Positions 24,055-49,733 of a DNA stretch of 64,000 nucleotides are shown here, piece after piece (position 1 is the stretch's first letter; each line of letters starts with the position of its first letter). Position numbers and translations under genes: made by a program. Below the pieces are notes generated by a model. That model ran no database searches and was not told the DNA's origin. It saw only the letters and a program-made list of their open reading frames with translations. Source of the stretch: Methanothermococcus thermolithotrophicus DSM 2095 (lineage in GTDB: Archaea; AGJL01; Methanococci; Methanococcales; Methanococcaceae); the NCBI RefSeq assembly GCF_946463545.1, contig NZ_OX296583.1, positions 496,001 through 560,000 on the forward strand, read 5' to 3'.

Positions 24055-26124
24055 TTAGCAAATCTTACTTCCAACAGGAACATCTTTGTCAGGTGTTAAA
24101 AGAGCTACAACATCATCTCCGGCTGCTAAAACCATGCCTTGGGATTCAACACCGCAGAGTTTTGCAGGTTTTAAGTTACATACTAAAACAATTTTTTTTC
24201 CAACGAGCTCCTCAGGTTCATAGTGTCCTTTTATACCTGCAACAACCTGTCTTTTTTCATCGCCAATATCTACAATCAATTTTAACAATTTTTTTGATTT
24301 TGGGATGTCCTCTGCCTCTAAAATTTGAGCTACTCTTAAGTCCAAGTTATCAAAGTAATCTATGCCAATTAATTCCATTTTTTCACCATTAGACTTTTTT
24401 GTTTTGTTTTTACCTTTATTTTTTCCATCTGTTTTTGGCTCCTTCGATGCCATCAATTTTTCTTTCATCTTTTTGATGTCTTCGTCTTCGACTTTTTTAA
24501 ATATAACCTTTGGTTTTTTTAACTTTTTCCCTCTCAATTCTAAGTCAACTTCTTCGCCCATTAAATCCAAAATTTCCAAGGTCTTTTTAGGCATGAATGG
24601 ATACAACAGGTATAGTATGTATTTGACTACGGTACAACAGGTGTATAGAACTTCTTTTAATCTTGTTTCGTCTTTAATTGTCCAAGGTTCCATACTCTGG
24701 AAATATGTGTTTCCTTCCTTTGCAAGATGGATTATATTCATTAATGCATCTTTGAAGTTGTAGCTCCTTATGTTCTTATCTACATTAGTTAGTGTTTCTT
24801 CACATTTCATTAAAAGTGCTTTATCTTCTTCTTTTAGGCTCTCCTTATCTGCAATTGGAACTTCTTTGAATTTTCTCTGAGTAAATACCAAAGTTCTGTG
24901 GATGAAGTTTCCAATAATATCGATGAGCTCGGTGTTTATTCTCTTCTGGAATTCGTCCCATGAAAAATCGCTGTCCCTATTTAATGGAGCATTTATCATC
25001 AAGAAGTATCTTAAATAATCTGATTCAAAGTTTTCAACAAAGTCCTTGACCCAGACTACCCATTTTTTACTTGTACTCATTTTTCTTCCTTCCAATGTCA
25101 GGTAGCCCCCACTGATTACAGAAGACGGTAGGTTATAGTCACCGTTGGCAAGTATCATACCTGGCCAAAATACGGAGTGGTGAACGGTTATATCCTTTCC
25201 AATAAAGTGATATATTTTTACATCTTCTTCATTTTCTTTACCAACTGGATTCGAAAATCTTTGATTTTCGTAACCTACTGGATTCGAAAACCGAAGGTTT
25301 TCGTAATTTTTTAACCAATATTCTTTCCAAACGTCCCCTAACTGTTTTGTAAATGAAATATAACCTATAGGGGCTTCCAACCAAACATACATGACTTGGT
25401 TTGGATTCTCAGGTATTGGAACTCCCCATTTTATATCCCTTGAAATATCCCAGTCGTGGAGCTCTTCAATCCATCTTAAAGCCAAATTCTTTACATGTTC
25501 CGGCATCTCTTCTGAGCTCTTAATGTACTCCTCTAAATCACTATTCAAGGCACTTAATTTAAAGAAATAATGTGTTGTCTTTCTGATTTCTGGTTTGGCA
25601 TTACAGTGAACACAGTATGGGTCTATTAACTCTGTAGGTTCGAGGTGTCTTCCACAGACTTCACAGTGGTCTCCTCTAGCTTCTCCATCGCAGAACGGAC
25701 AGGTACCTTCGACATACCTATCTGCTAAAAATCTGTCACATTTTGGACAGTAAAATTGCTCAATTTCCTTTTCGTATATGTATCCGTTCTCTCTTAATTT
25801 TTTATAGAATTCTTGGGCAGTTTTGATATGTATATCACTGTGGGTTCTTCCAAAGGAATCAAAAACCACATTTAAACTATCCAAATCATGTTTTATCTCA
25901 TTGTGGTACTTTTCAACAATATCTTCCGGAGTAACCCCTTCTTTTTCTGCAGTTAATGTAATAGGAACCCCGTGGTTATCTGTTCCACCAACATGTATGA
26001 CATCTTCCCCTTTTAATTTCAAATATCTCGTCATAATATCCGCTGGGATATAGGTACTCCTAGCATGTCCAAGATGCAAAGGACCGTTTGTATATGCAAG
26101 GGCAGTTGTAATAAGATACTTCAT
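24055..26124 (-). CDS. metG: Methionyl-tRNA synthetase
   Basis: 689-residue class I synthetase. HIGH motif [10 protein letters not shown] near the N-terminus, four-Cys zinc knuckles (CPKC, CPFC, CEVC, CVHC) in the connective peptide, KMSKS variant GRKMSTSKK, a Lys-rich linker and a C-terminal Trbp111-type tRNA-binding domain ([18 protein letters not shown]). ATG 26124 is chosen because GGAGGG lies six bases upstream; an in-frame ATG at 26142 would swallow that site. Residues about 271-294 (two copies of an ENxRFSNPVG-type unit) are an insertion encoded by a palindromic DNA cassette also found in trm5. Confidence 0.96.
25242..25312. repeat. Double-palindrome cassette inside metG
   Basis: Two tandem units, each CTGGATTCGAAAA, a short loop and TTTTCGTAA; the loops are TCTTTGA and CCGAAGG. 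The 70-base cassette is nearly identical, outside one loop, to the reverse complement of 30416-30478 in trm5. In metG it is translated as two ENxRFSNPVG repeats and keeps the frame open. Confidence 0.85.
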
Positions 26125-26332
26125 TATTTCCCTCCGTGACATTCGTATTATAGTATTTTAGTTGTGATTGATTAGCTTAACTATTAGCATTTTTAAATAT
26201 ATATTATTGTTTAAAACTAAAATGAATTTAATTTAAAAATATGAGATTGATTTACCAGAGCTCTCGGAACAACTACACTTAAAAAAAATTTTAGCCAAAT
26301 CATATTTCTTATGTTACTAAGAAGGTGGTATA

Positions 26333-26433
26333 TATAGTACTTCCACAATAATATATATTAAATTTAAATTAAATTAGATAATATTTTTCAAAACTAACAT
26401 AGTTAGTTTTGTTAACTTTGTGGAAGCACCATA
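26333..26433. repeat. TIR element, family B, upstream of gapdh
   Basis: The left end TATAGTACTTCCACAA and right end TTGTGGAAGCACCATA are inverted repeats matching at 13 of 16 positions; the core is AT-rich with a nested AAACTAAC/GTTAGTTT hairpin. It has the size and TATAG-type ends of the family A elements but a different end sequence. Together with weaker repeats near 26155-26276 it fills the 411-base spacer between metG and the GAPDH gene. Confidence 0.65.
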
Positions 26434-26535
26434 CATTAAAATCAATAATATTGTATGGCATTACCAAAGCTATTTCAAAACTGAAGTACAATAATGTATT
26501 TTGAAATGGCAATAGACAGCTTCAGGTGATTATAG

Positions 26536-27558
26536 ATGGCAAAAGTTTTAATAAATGGATATGGTTCAATAGGGAAAAGAGTAGCTGATGCAGTATCCAA
26601 GCAAGACGATATGGAAGTTATAGGAGTTACAAAAACTAAACCTGATTTTGAAGCTAGATTGGCAGTTGAAAAAGGATATAAATTATTTGCAGCAATTCCT
26701 GAAAGAAAACATTTATTTGAAGAAGCAGGAATTGAAATTGAAGGTACCATTGATGATATAATTGAAGATGCAGATATTGTAGTTGATGGAGCACCAAAAA
26801 AGATAGGAACAGATAACTTAGAAAAGATCTACAAAAAATACGGCGTTAAGGCAATATTACAAGGTGGAGAAAAAGCTCACGTAGTTGAAGATTCATTTAA
26901 CTCACTTTGGAGCTACGATAGATGTTATGGAAAAGACTATATTAGGGTAGTTTCATGCAACACAACAGGATTGTGTAGGACATTTTATGCCATCAACTCT
27001 GTTACCGATATATTAAAAGCTAGAGTAGTTTTAGTAAGGAGAGCAGCTGACCCGAACGATGCAAAAACAGGTCCAGTAAATGCAATTGTTCCGAATCCTG
27101 CAACCGTGCCTTCTCACCACGGACCTGATGTAGTATCCGTTGTTCCACAGTTTGAAGGTAAAATAATGTCTTCAGCAGTTATAGTTCCAACAACCTTAAT
27201 GCACATGCACTCTTTAATGGTTGAAACTACAGGAGTTACAAAAGATGATGTTTTAGATGCAATTGAAAAAACCCCAAGGATAATTACTGTAAAAGCTTCA
27301 GAAGGTTTGGACTCAACCGCGACAATTATAGAATATGCAAGAGATTTAGGAAGACCAAGATACGATTTAAATGAAATCGCAATCTGGGAAGAAAGCGTAA
27401 ACGTAGTAGATAATGAAATATTCTTAATGCAAGCAATACACCAAGAAAGTGATGTAATCCCAGAAAACATTGACTGTATAAGGGCAATGCTCCAAATGGA
27501 AGACGACAATATGAAATCCATTGAAAAAACAAATAAAGCTATGGGTCTTTTAAAATAA
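26536..27558 (+). CDS. gap: Glyceraldehyde-3-phosphate dehydrogenase, type II archaeal
   Basis: Phosphorylating, NAD(P)+-dependent GAPDH acting mainly in gluconeogenesis in methanogens. 340 residues, the normal length: Rossmann motif [17 protein letters not shown], catalytic Cys in [10 protein letters not shown] (about residue 140) and the archaeal-type [29 protein letters not shown] precedes the ATG. The gene has a long upstream spacer with a terminal-inverted-repeat element that may carry or displace its promoter. Confidence 0.97.
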
Positions 27559-27765
27559 ATACAAATGTTTTATTTTTTTAGAACATTATGATTATTTAAA
27601 TTTTGAAAAAATTAAGGCATTTACTCTTTAAAATACTTTTTTAGCTCAATTTTAGTAGTTTGACAGTCAAATATGGCATAATTATATTTACTAAGTTAAT
27701 AAGACATTACTTGCTTGGATTTTAATAATTTTTCGATTTCGTCAAGATCATACGTGCGTGAAACT

Positions 27766-28143
27766 ATGAAATACATTAGGGGCCGCTCTTACAAAGAGCT
27801 AATTGAAAAGATTAGAGAGCTCGGTACAGATGTGGAAGAAATATACTTAAATAAAGAGCTGTCAAAAAACTTAATTATTGAAATATTAGAAAATTGTGAA
27901 GTTAAAACCATTTATCTTCCCGAATCCCGATACAAGAGAACTAACAAAAAAATCCTAGACGCATTAAAAGAAATAGGTGTGGAAGTTAAGTGTATAAAGG
28001 GAAAATGTGGAAGACCAACAAATAAAAAAGAAATTATAGCCAAATACTTGGACAAAAGTCCTGAAGAAATCTCCAAAATAACAGGCATCAATCTCAAAAC
28101 TGTAGAATACCATTACTATAAACTTAAATCTAGAAAATCATAG
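27766..28143 (+). CDS. DUF1699-like protein with C-terminal HTH
   Basis: About 125 residues. The N-terminal half (IRGRSYKELIEKIRELG; VKTIYLPESRYKRTNKKILDAL) resembles the archaeal DUF1699 family. The C-terminal 45 residues (IIAKYLDKSPEEISKITG; LKTVEYHYYKLKSRKS) look like a helix-turn-helix of the sigma-70 region 4 / LuxR type, so a DNA-binding role is plausible. The start at 27766 is preferred over an in-frame ATG 17 codons upstream because the latter adds a non-conserved tail; the ribosome site GTGAAA is weak. Family assignment is tentative. Confidence 0.65.
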   Translation: MKYIRGRSYKELIEKIRELGTDVEEIYLNKELSKNLIIEILENCEVKTIYLPESRYKRTNKKILDALKEIGVEVKCIKGKCGRPTNKKEIIAKYLDKSPEEISKITGINLKTVEYHYYKLKSRKS

Positions 28144-28148
28144 ATTAA

Positions 28149-28212
28149 ACAAACACTTCGTGTTTGTAGCCCACAATTGAAATTGTGGCTTTCTTATTAT
28201 TCACTTCGTTCA
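28149..28212. repeat. Hairpin block downstream of DUF1699-like gene
   Basis: Three adjacent inverted repeats: AAACACTTCGTGTTT, then CCACAATTGAAATTGTGG, then TTATTCACTTCGTTCATAA. The phrase GTGTTTGTAGCCCACAA recurs in part at 30211-30224 and 37800-37811. May act as a terminator; the repetition suggests a dispersed palindrome family related to IS605-type ends. Confidence 0.6.
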
Positions 28213-28401
28213 TAATCGCAAAACAGGTTTTTGATTTTTAGTAACTTTTAAAACAAAATATTTATATAAATATAACAAATATTTTAGTGTTGGATTATAC
28301 TTTGTTTTTTGGCTATTTTGGTTTTAGCTTTTTTATCGAATTCTCTTTTTAGAAAAGGTCGATTTAAATATAATAATGTATAAATGTTCGGGGGTGCCAA
28401 A

Positions 28402-30204
28402 ATGAGTAAAAATCATGACTTGGAATTTACATTGAATGAACTGTGGAATGCAAATAGAGAATTTTATGAAATTTTGAAGACAAGCGATAGCATAGACTCT
28501 GCAAGAAAAAGAATTTATGAATATTTGGCCAGTTTAGAAAATAAAATTTATTTTGAAGAAATAGATCTTCATCCATTAGAGATAATTAACATGAAATCAT
28601 GTATAAAAGTCTTTAAAAATATCATGGCCCCAAAAAACGAAAAATTAAGCAAATTCAGTGCTTTAGAAACACTGTGGAATCTTGCAAATGGAAACATAGA
28701 CGAACTAGAAACAAATATTAGCATTGGATTTCTGGAGGAATTTAAACACTTGTTAAAAGGCATAATTGGCAATTCAGGAATATATAACAGTAAAGAAGTT
28801 CCAGAATTTTTAAAACTAAAAGGCAGGGAAGCTGCAATAGAAAGGTCAAAAGAGCTTGATAGAATTTATGAATACGCCAATAGATTCATGAAAAAATATC
28901 CTTCAGGATTGTTAGAAGAGGTTAAATCAAAAAGAGAAGAAAATAAAAGAAGAATTTTGGATTATTTTGGAGGGAATGAGGAAGACTGGGAAAACTGGAA
29001 ATGGCACCTTAAAAATATCGTAAAAGATAGACAAACTTTGGAAAATCTTATTGAACTTACTGAAGAAGAAAAAAGAGCCATAGAGTTAGCTGTAGAAAAT
29101 TCAATCCCATTTGGAATTACCCCATACTACATTTCTTTGATGGACAAAGATCCTAGTAGAAAATATGATCACGCAGTTAGAGCTCAGGTAATCCCTCCGT
29201 TAGACTACGTTGAAAAAGTAATTGAAGGTAGGGAAAATAATAAGAATATGGATTTCATGGGTGAAAACGATACTTCGCCAATTAGTCTTGTTACAAGAAG
29301 ATATCCTATGATAGCAATATTGAAACCATATAACACCTGTGCCCAAATTTGTGTTTACTGTCAGAGAAACTGGCAAATAAAAAATGTACTTGCAGAAGAT
29401 GCCATTGCTCCGAAAAGTGCAATTGAAAATGCAGTTGAATGGTTTAAAAATCATGAATCAATGAAAGAAGTATTAATAACTGGAGGAGATCCTGTCGTTT
29501 TAAATGATGATTTTTTAGATAAGCTTTTATCAGAATTTTCAGGAATTAATCATATTGAAAGGATTAGAATAGGTACAAGGATGCCCGTGGTATTACCTCA
29601 AAGAATCACAGATGATTTTGCAGACATGCTTGAAAATCATCATGAGCCTGGAAAAAGAGAAGTTGCAATATCAACACATGTAGAACATGTTTACGAGGTT
29701 ACAGACGACCTTAAAGACGCCGTTCAAAAAATTAGAAAAAGAGGAATTTGTGTTTATAATCAGCAAGTATTTACTGTCGAAAATAGTAGAAAATTTGAAA
29801 CTTCTGCATTAAGAGTGGCCCTAAGATTAATTGGTGTGGTACCATACTATACATTCAATACAAAAGGGAAAGAAGAAACTGCAAAATATAGAGTTCCTAT
29901 TGCAAGATTAATGCAAGAAAATAAAGAGGAATCAAGGCTATTGCCAGGATACAATAGAACCGATAGTCCAGTATTTAATGTTCCAAAGTTAGGTAAGAAC
30001 AACCTCATATCCTGGCAGGATCATGAATTAATATCGATACTACCTGATGGAAGTAGGGTTTATGAATTCCATCCATGGGAGAAAAATATGACCCTTACAA
30101 ACACTTACATCTATAAAGACGTCCCTATCTATGATTATCTCATGGAATTAAAAAGGAGAGGCGAAGATATAAATGAATACAATACCATCTGGTATTATTT
30201 CTAA
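28402..30204 (+). CDS. KamA-family radical SAM aminomutase
   Basis: 600-residue radical SAM enzyme of the lysine 2,3-aminomutase family. The cluster motif CAQICVYCQRNW (CxxxCxxC, near residue 313) is followed by LITGGDPVVLNDDFL and the PLP-lysine-type region near the C-terminus. It has an unusual 200-residue helical N-terminal extension relative to the bacterial enzyme (about 420 residues); the M. jannaschii homologue MJ0634 is similarly long. Methanogens make N-epsilon-acetyl-beta-lysine with a different, shorter AblA, so the substrate here is uncertain. The start follows GGGGGTG. Confidence 0.88.
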   Translation: MSKNHDLEFTLNELWNANREFYEILKTSDSIDSARKRIYEYLASLENKIYFEEIDLHPLEIINMKSCIKVFKNIMAPKNEKLSKFSALETLWNLANGNIDELETNISIGFLEEFKHLLKGIIGNSGIYNSKEVPEFLKLKGREAAIERSKELDRIYEYANRFMKKYPSGLLEEVKSKREENKRRILDYFGGNEEDWENWKWHLKNIVKDRQTLENLIELTEEEKRAIELAVENSIPFGITPYYISLMDKDPSRKYDHAVRAQVIPPLDYVEKVIEGRENNKNMDFMGENDTSPISLVTRRYPMIAILKPYNTCAQICVYCQRNWQIKNVLAEDAIAPKSAIENAVEWFKNHESMKEVLITGGDPVVLNDDFLDKLLSEFSGINHIERIRIGTRMPVVLPQRITDDFADMLENHHEPGKREVAISTHVEHVYEVTDDLKDAVQKIRKRGICVYNQQVFTVENSRKFETSALRVALRLIGVVPYYTFNTKGKEETAKYRVPIARLMQENKEESRLLPGYNRTDSPVFNVPKLGKNNLISWQDHELISILPDGSRVYEFHPWEKNMTLTNTYIYKDVPIYDYLMELKRRGEDINEYNTIWYYF

Positions 30205-30269
30205 CATTCTTATCCGTGTTTGTAGCTTAAAATTGTACATCACCATATATTTGCTCAAAGGTGAGATTC

Positions 30270-31355
30270 TTGGTAGTCTGTGTTAAGGTACCTGTTGAAA
30301 ATGGGGAAAAAACTAGGAAAGTTCTTCTGGAAAATAACATACTTGATAAAAGCTACAGAATAAAAAAGGAAGGGAATTATTTGTATATACCCCTAAATTC
30401 AGCAGGTTTAAAATTACGAAAATCAGAGATTTTCGAATCCAGTAGGTTACGAAAACCTTCGGTTTTCGAATCCAGTTGGGATTCTGGAATAGACGATTTA
30501 GGACTTGAGATAGTTGAATTAAATGAAGATGAGCTAGAAAAAGTTGAAAGAAAAAAATCAGAGAGTTTTAAGGATTACCTGTTAAAAAATTTCGAAAAAG
30601 AAATTGAAGAAGGGATTATTGCCCATTCCTATGATGTAGTTGGAGATATTGCAATCCTCCAAATATCTGATGAAATGGATTTAGAAACACGAAAAGAAAT
30701 TGGAAAAGCTGCCCTAAAACTAATACCTTCGGTAAAAACTGTTTTTAGGAGAAAAAGTGAGATACTAGGAGATTTTAGAGTTAGAGAATTGGAACATTTA
30801 GCTGGAGAATATAAAACATTGACATTGTACAAAGAAAACGGATATAGACTTTGGGTGGATGTTGAAAAGGTTTATTTCTCCCCAAGACTTGGATGGGAAA
30901 GAAAAAGGATTATGGATAAGGTAAATTATGACGATATAGTTGTGGATATGTTCTGCGGTGTTGGACCATACTCCATAGCCTGTAAAAATGCAAAAAAGAT
31001 ATATTCAATCGATATAAATCCTGATGCAATAGAGCTCCTGAAGAAGAACATCGAATTAAACCATCTTGAAAACAAAATTGTCCCAATATTGGAAGATGTT
31101 AGAAAAGTTGATGTCAAAGGAAACAGAGTTATAATGAATTTACCTAAGTATGCCCATGAATTTGTTGATAAGGCATTGGATATTGTGGAAGAAAATGGAG
31201 TAATCCACTACTACACCATCGGAAAAGACTTTGAAGATGCAGAAAAACTATTTGGTTCAAAATGTGAATTTGAAATTCTGGAAAAGAGAATTGTAAAATC
31301 TTATTCGCCTAGGGAATATGTTCTTGCCATAGATTTTAAAATATTAAAAAAATAA
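30270..31355 (+). CDS. trm5: tRNA (guanine37-N1)-methyltransferase Trm5
   Basis: Methylates G37 of tRNA with S-adenosylmethionine. About 361 residues: D1 domain, D2 domain with FRRKSEILGDFRVRELEHLAGE, and the Rossmann-fold D3 domain with VVDMFCGVGPYSIACKNA and NLPKYAHEFV. It matches MJ0883 closely except for about 21-24 extra residues at positions 49-72, encoded by a double-palindrome DNA cassette. TTG 30270 is preferred because it follows AAAGGTGAGA and matches the M. jannaschii N-terminus; GTG 30261 is the alternative. Confidence 0.93.
   Translation: MVVCVKVPVENGEKTRKVLLENNILDKSYRIKKEGNYLYIPLNSAGLKLRKSEIFESSRLRKPSVFESSWDSGIDDLGLEIVELNEDELEKVERKKSESFKDYLLKNFEKEIEEGIIAHSYDVVGDIAILQISDEMDLETRKEIGKAALKLIPSVKTVFRRKSEILGDFRVRELEHLAGEYKTLTLYKENGYRLWVDVEKVYFSPRLGWERKRIMDKVNYDDIVVDMFCGVGPYSIACKNAKKIYSIDINPDAIELLKKNIELNHLENKIVPILEDVRKVDVKGNRVIMNLPKYAHEFVDKALDIVEENGVIHYYTIGKDFEDAEKLFGSKCEFEILEKRIVKSYSPREYVLAIDFKILKK
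30416..30478. repeat. Double-palindrome cassette inside trm5
   Basis: Two tandem units, each TTACGAAAA, a loop and TTTTCGAATCCAG; the loops are TCAGAGA and CCTTCGG. In reverse complement it is nearly identical to 25242-25312 in metG. Here it is read as [20 protein letters not shown], a different frame from the one used in metG, so the conserved thing is the DNA and not the peptide. Confidence 0.85.
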
Positions 31356-32868: not shown

Positions 32869-32991
32869 TATGGTCGTTCTGCAATTAGCAAATTACGGCA
32901 TAATTTAAATTTTAAATTATAGAAGTTTTTAAACAATATATAATTAATTTAGATGATATAATTATGTGCCTACATTCGCAGAACGACCATA
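32869..32991. repeat. TIR element, family A copy 3, overlapping a stop codon
   Basis: About 123 bp, ends TATGGTCGTTCTGCAATTA and ATTCGCAGAACGACCATA. It lies in the rfcL upstream region and runs into the 3' end of the DUF447 gene, whose last codons (MVVLRM and TAG) are read from the inverted repeat. Confidence 0.8.
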
Positions 32992-33770: not shown

Positions 33771-33916
33771 TATAGTCGTTCTGCAAATTCAGGCACTAAA
33801 TATAGCATAAGAAATTCTAAAATTTAACTATAATACTTAAAAATTCTACTAAAATTAATAGAATTAATGTAAATTATAATAAGCATAATAGTTGTATAAA
33901 TTGCAGAACGACTATA
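33771..33916. repeat. TIR element, family A copy 4, upstream of aroK
   Basis: About 146 bp, ends TATAGTCGTTCTGCAAATT and ATTGCAGAACGACTATA, AT-rich core. A degenerate end (TCGTCGTTCCACATATATA) lies 118 bases further upstream at 33654, so an older copy may have been interrupted here. The element stops 38 bases before the shikimate kinase ATG. Confidence 0.75.
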
Positions 33917-45943: not shown

Positions 45944-46054
45944 GTGTGGTTGTCCTACAATTAGGTCAAATACTAACTTCGAATTAATTTTTTTAAATAT
46001 TTTCCCATTAATAACCATATCTGTACAATCATTCGCAGAACGACTACGACTATA
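45944..46054. repeat. TIR element, family A copy 5, upstream of AGOG gene
   Basis: The left end GTGGTTGTCCTACAATTAG starts at the korB stop, and the right end ATTCGCAGAACGACTACGACTATA has an internal duplication of ACGACT. It fills the korB-AGOG spacer. Confidence 0.65.
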
Positions 46055-49620: not shown

Positions 49621-49733
49621 TAGTCGTTCCGCAATTAGATTAGTCAATATACTTAATTTTAATAGGTGTTATAATATACTTTAAATTCCAATTTGAAGAA
49701 ACATTCTATGGAACATATTCGCAGAACGACTAT
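49621..49733. repeat. TIR element, family A copy 6, upstream of nmd3
   Basis: About 113 bp, ends TAGTCGTTCCGCAATTAGATT (first 16 bases are the conserved part) and ATTCGCAGAACGACTA. It lies between aif2-beta and nmd3 and ends 43 bases before the nmd3 ATG. Confidence 0.75.

Follow-up and report, generated by a model that had tools for sequence, protein, structure and literature searches.

The in-frame insertion of palindromic DNA into protein-coding genes has precedents in Rickettsia, in other bacteria, and in Methanocaldococcus. Rickettsia palindromic elements (RPEs; Ogata 2000, 2002) are 105-146 bp (PMC2229807) or about 150 bp (PMC10969869) in length, and one of their ends was reported as CGTC (PMC3733652). 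In Archaea, Suyama, Lathe, and Bork (2005) described palindromic elements that are fused into protein-coding genes in M. jannaschii, as cited in PMC2229807 and PMC2996958. Bacterial intragenic GTAG/CGTC REPs are single stem-loops of 20-40 bp that are found in ORFs singly, as dimers, or in groups (Di Nocera 2013, PMC3733652). More than half of them form dimers or groups encoding 20-30 aa, the dimers being mostly head-to-head and sometimes tail-to-tail, and their host genes also include those for tRNA synthetase and tRNA modification (PMC3733652). Here, we analyzed a family of 33-bp palindromic units located in metG, trm5, and other genes of a methanogen.

The 33-bp unit in metG and trm5

Two copies of a repeat unit, located head-to-tail and forming an array of 66 bp (22 codons), were found in each of the genes metG and trm5 in the window, i.e., the whole stretch of 64,000 nucleotides analyzed. 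The unit is exactly 33 bp long and reads TTA-CGAAAAYC-NNN-GRTTTTCG-AATCCAGTAGG on the coding strand. It thus consists of TTA, an 8-bp stem, a 3-nt loop, and the 11-nt tail AATCCAGTAGG. Both genes and their units, with E-values from a covariance model (CM), are as follows:

24055..26142, minus strand: metG (methionyl-tRNA synthetase), host gene; ORF of 695 aa including the 22-aa insert, with Pfam domains tRNA-synt_1g and tRNA_bind
25241-25306, minus strand: metG array of two units, 66 bp
25274..25306, minus strand: metG unit 1, TTACGAAAACCTTCGGTTTTCGAATCCAGTAGG; CM match with E 1.1e-8, and junctions
25241..25273, minus strand: metG unit 2, TTACGAAAATCAAAGATTTTCGAATCCAGTTGG; CM match with E 7.5e-9, segment missing in 29 orthologues
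30261..31355, plus strand: trm5 (tRNA m1G37 methyltransferase), host gene; ORF of 364 aa including the 22-aa insert
Trm5 protein, Pfam domains: Trm5_N at residues 7-46, TYW2_N_2 at 109-183, TRM5-TYW2_MTfase at 188-332
30414-30479, plus strand: trm5 array of two units, 66 bp
30414..30446, plus strand: trm5 unit 1, TTACGAAAATCAGAGATTTTCGAATCCAGTAGG, encoding the peptide LRKSEIFESSR; CM match with E 3.8e-9
30447..30479, plus strand: trm5 unit 2, TTACGAAAACCTTCGGTTTTCGAATCCAGTTGG; CM match with E 2.7e-8, segment missing in orthologues and in MJ0883

An earlier note on this DNA had recognized both arrays and their two-unit layout, whereas its coordinates deviate slightly from those listed above, and the lengths it gave, 70 and 63 bases, are replaced here by 66 bp for each gene.

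Four matches to the unit pattern were found in the window, compared with 0.04 expected from shuffled sequences, and none of the shuffles reached four. Among 15 distinct units, the stem positions are paired in 95.8% of cells. Compensatory changes in the stem were found in 13 cells, compared with 4.5 in shuffles (0/500), and all controls with slid partners were far below this value. This hairpin also forms when representative units are folded as single-stranded DNA (z between -2.6 and -4.4).

Two other repeats were observed in the window. The motif TTGCAGAACGACTA has 12 matches, compared with 0.66 expected, located at 1983-2092, 2194-2309, 32871-32989, 33773-33914, and 49621-49732, with single copies at 46033 and 58988. 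These copies mostly form inverted pairs, 110-142 bp apart, around AT-rich intergenic stretches, several of them just upstream of start codons; the motif is a candidate for a MITE-like element or a paired start-site motif. The sequence TAGTGGTGTGCAATTTTA has four matches, compared with 0.11 expected, at 2095, 9521, 55310, and, in a weaker form, 30228.

Distribution and reading frames of the units

The source genome is a single contig of 1,706,496 bp and the one genome of its genus among the Methanococcales compared. In total, 20 units at 14 loci were found in the whole genome at E < 0.002, with a CM built from 12 units and with some of the 20 matches belonging to its training set. Genome positions of these units are as follows:

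77567: isopropylmalate/isocitrate dehydrogenase family gene (herein leuB), one unit
159127: SNase gene, one unit in the opposite orientation
521241 and 521274: metG, two units
526414 and 526447: trm5, two units
591556 and 591589: NnrE/NnrD gene (nnr), two units
622794: HAM1 gene (ham1), one unit
846056 and 846089: gene for a putative PHP-domain protein (no Pfam match), two units
994599: gene for a PP-loop protein (putative LarE-like), one unit
1095413, 1095446, and 1095479: UPF0146 gene, three units
1152371: MBL-fold gene, one unit inside a larger composite insert
1432313: gene for Nog1 GTPase (nog1), N-terminus, one weak unit
1583215: intergenic composite, one unit
997873 and 633635: intergenic, one weaker unit each

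At least 10 of the loci belong to protein genes, metG, trm5, nnrE/D, HAM1, UPF0146, and SNase among them, and the host proteins have no function in common. Thus, what the earlier note took for one cassette in two genes is a family of 33-bp units, which the genome search proposed in that note recovers both inside and outside genes. A scan with the right end of the unit alone revealed two additional composite sites, at 605217 and 984293; larger composite elements with this right end are located at 605217, 984293, 1152371, and 1583215.

Weak hairpins in the genes for Cas3 (80757) and RadB (1157313) have the stem and lack the tail, and were left outside the family count. Bare stems CGAAAAYC..GRTTTTCG in other intergenic hairpins were likewise not scored as units. 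The genome is rich in other short intergenic hairpin repeats, such as chains containing CGATTCACAAAAACCTTTGGTTTTTGTCGAACTCA and hairpins that precede CCCTTAACGGGAAG, which apparently represent several REP-like families sharing interchangeable stems.

Two reading frames of the unit are used in the host genes. In metG, leuB, ham1, UPF0146, nog1, and an unannotated gene of another genome (G022), the unit starts at codon position 3 and encodes YENxRFSNPVG. It starts at codon position 1 in trm5, nnr, the PHP gene, the PP-loop gene, and the MBL gene, with an RKSEIFESS-type peptide in trm5. A start at codon position 2, which would place the consensus TAG in frame, was found in none of 11 cases (chance 0.012). 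Four of the six frames of the unit are open, including two in the reverse orientation. Nevertheless, 11 of 12 insertions have the same orientation (two-sided p 0.006, with the SNase unit of two genera counted as one). The use of two reading frames, the avoidance of the stop frame, and the compensatory stem changes indicate that conservation acts on the DNA palindrome. The earlier note had reached this view from its translations of metG (ENxRFSNPVG) and trm5 (RKSEIFESS-type, in the other frame), both of which were confirmed; the frames and the stem co-variation agree with it. The trm5 and nnr dimers are alike at 65 of 66 positions, which suggests joint movement of the two units of a dimer.

When 84,980 GTDB genomes were scanned, the only locus with the unit outside the source genome (L060) was at the end of contig JASGMZ010000119.1, which is binned to a Bacteroidales MAG. 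This locus is identical to the source genome over about 700 bp, throughout the upstream region and in UPF0146 units 1 and 2, whereas its third UPF0146 unit is a copy of unit 2 and not the third unit of the source genome. Provided that the contig end was assembled correctly, it comes from a strain of the source organism whose array differs; the array difference could be an assembly artefact. Because this contig is identical to a methanogen over about 700 bp, the Bacteroidales MAG appears to be contaminated. Matches in Chryseobacterium, Chloroflexia, and Ileibacterium (L059, L061, and L062) have the appearance of chance and were rejected. No exact match to the unit was found in IMG/VR, and only sub-threshold matches were found in Rfam.

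The unit in the G022 gene is followed by TTACGAAAA, which may be the beginning of a degraded second unit. The SNase unit is present at the same site in the source genome and in Methanotorris igneus (G035), whereas the congeneric genome G034 reads NNINFN without the unit and has a protein shorter by 11 aa. Because two genera share this unit, the insertions include at least one that is old or else site-specific. No match to the unit model was found at E<=0.05 in the genome whose Trm5 matches MJ0883 (G004) and which was taken as M. jannaschii.

Insertion into host genes and possible origin of the units

Alignment with other Methanococcales genomes, as proposed in the earlier note, revealed that the segments are missing from 29 MetG and 29 Trm5 orthologues, in which the corresponding loop or linker is variable in length. 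Both segments are also extra relative to the solved chains of Pyrococcus MetRS and Trm5 MJ0883, the latter as stated in the earlier note. The trm5 insert falls within the linker joining the Trm5_N (D1) domain to the one that follows. A surplus of whole units relative to aligned orthologues was found for metG, trm5, ham1, UPF0146, leuB, nnr, the PP-loop gene, the PHP gene, and SNase; for metG, trm5, and nnr the loops vary in length, and the alignment cannot prove the exact net length of the insert. At the aligned insertions the host frame is kept, and all lengths are multiples of 33 bp. Relative to the closest relatives, the PHP protein is longer by 22 aa and the PP-loop protein by 11 aa. Several insertions are located in loops, domain linkers, or domain ends; by Pfam boundaries, the inserts in trm5, nnr, UPF0146, and nog1 fall between or before domains.

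The ham1 protein reads ...KI[NYENHRFSNPVG]KP, compared with KIKKP or KIEKP in relatives. Removal of the 33-mer gives AAAATAAAAAAACCG and restores the KIKKP of relatives; the solved HAM1 chain 1b78 lacks 11 residues at the place of the insert. A 389-bp 3' fragment of ham1, 95.6% identical to the source gene, was observed in M. aeolicus (G023, L180:1503-1890), adjoining an apparent gene for P-type ATPase; it was probably transferred recently from a near relative of the source organism. The start of the fragment coincides exactly with the 3' edge of the unit, and since its upstream homology is only about 13 nt, it is no proven empty site. An open frame of 785 aa was found for the PHP-domain orthologue in a genome of Methanocaldococcaceae (G001:C1:1516525-1518882); it contains a large internal insertion that may be an intein.

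At eight clean junctions, neither a consistent target-site duplication nor a consensus target was found. In ham1 and UPF0146, the insert is flanked by AAA on both sides, and a 3-nt duplication could have occurred at these two sites. No match to PF01797 (Y1 transposase of the RAYT family / IS200-type) was found in the source genome, compared with matches in 6 of 14 control genomes; M. aeolicus has a broken copy.

In favor of a chance likeness of AT-rich palindromes in two genes, short inverted repeats of this composition are frequent in the genome, and a relaxed stem pattern with two mismatches gives 35 control matches. The full-unit pattern, however, has 11 strong copies genome-wide compared with none for the reversed-pattern control; together with the excess in the window and CM E-values down to 3e-9, this refutes chance similarity. 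The near-constancy of YENxRFSNPVG in metG, leuB, ham1, and UPF0146 could instead reflect a functional loop or linker peptide that spreads because it is useful. This explanation is largely refuted, and we regard it as very improbable, because trm5, nnr, the PHP gene, and the PP-loop gene read this DNA in another frame, intergenic units exist (1583215 and 997873), the hosts share no function, and the stems co-vary as DNA. Equally little credit can be given to the loss of the segments before or during translation, by archaeal intron removal or by ribosome skipping. The byp elements are small hairpin insertions and resemble those found here in essential genes. However, no bulge-helix-bulge was predicted by RNA folds around the metG or ham1 insertion, and neither multiples of three nor avoidance of the stop frame, both observed, would be needed for removal or bypass.

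A further alternative is an origin of the units as MITEs from a DDE-type insertion sequence, either resident or lost. Their defined ends, the scattered near-identical copies, the presence or absence between relatives, and the four larger composites with the same right end are consistent with this origin. It is nevertheless improbable, given the junctions without consistent target-site duplication, the inverted repeat that is a single internal hairpin rather than a terminal pair, and the head-to-tail tandems, which are unusual for MITEs. With good confidence, we consider the units to be a very small palindromic repeat family that inserts as whole units, dimers, or trimers, like intragenic REP or RPE elements, although the copy number of 20 is modest.

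Members of this repeat family would insert whole or as head-to-tail dimers or trimers without target-site duplication, and their spread would depend on single strands or hairpins and not on a DDE transposase. Candidate routes would be a tyrosine HUH transposase acting in trans or since lost, or, alternatively, hairpin template switching at replication forks; tandem expansion or conversion by slippage could follow. Since 33 bp equal 11 codons and four of six frames are open, an insertion would usually cost only a short added peptide. Selection would retain copies at permissive sites in an open frame, with no benefit to the host protein required, and by the frame statistics the insert would be translated and not cut from the message. 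More speculatively, and with a low probability, hairpin units may be inserted whole by a putative transposase-free or other process that causes no target duplication, prefers one strand relative to host transcription, and can also add or remove single units precisely (SNase in Methanotorris and UPF0146 in the sister strain). If true, this would be a new mode of gene elongation by multiples of codons.

A selfish-looking small DNA element would add peptide segments to housekeeping proteins, providing a clean natural experiment in the addition of peptide to essential enzymes by mobile DNA. The presence or absence between sister species and the change between near-identical strains make its rate measurable. 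Because the host is probably a thermophilic methanogen that can be cultured, tests of translation, tolerance, and mobility should be feasible.

Comparison with known palindromic elements

Like RPEs and the coding palindromes of Wolbachia, the units are in-frame palindromic DNA in many unrelated conserved genes and are apparently tolerated in loops. Of the features of the RPE-like class, location in several unrelated genes (at least 10), a preserved frame, and absence from orthologues were found here, and the likeness to RPEs drawn in the earlier note holds for the in-frame location, the two frames, and the orthologues without the segment. RPEs measure about 100-150 bp and bear a CGTC tag at one end, whereas the units are 33 bp long, tandem, archaeal, and without a CGTC end. 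The elements of M. jannaschii are reportedly about 100 bp long. They belong to the same archaeal order, are palindromic, and, according to the papers citing their description, have some copies in protein genes (Suyama 2005). The 33-bp unit, whose model has no match in G004, may differ from them. Compared with bacterial intragenic REPs, the units are arranged head-to-tail, belong to an archaeal host, and have no RAYT found; their GTAG is located in the 3' tail, 6 nt (AATCCA) from the stem, and not at the foot of the hairpin. MITEs are similarly small and dispersed with defined ends, whereas the present units are 33 bp long and have neither paired terminal inverted repeats nor a consistent target-site duplication.

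Given the precedents in Rickettsia, bacteria, and M. jannaschii (2005, as cited), the view of the earlier note, which was aware of no description in Methanococcales, is wrong for the phenomenon. The 33-bp family itself appears to be new, with its head-to-tail arrays and strand bias, and is set apart from RPEs by length and ends and, going by the G004 result, possibly also from the M. jannaschii elements. With its very small unit of exactly 11 codons, in-frame elongation of genes by palindromes is now seen in a second archaeal family.
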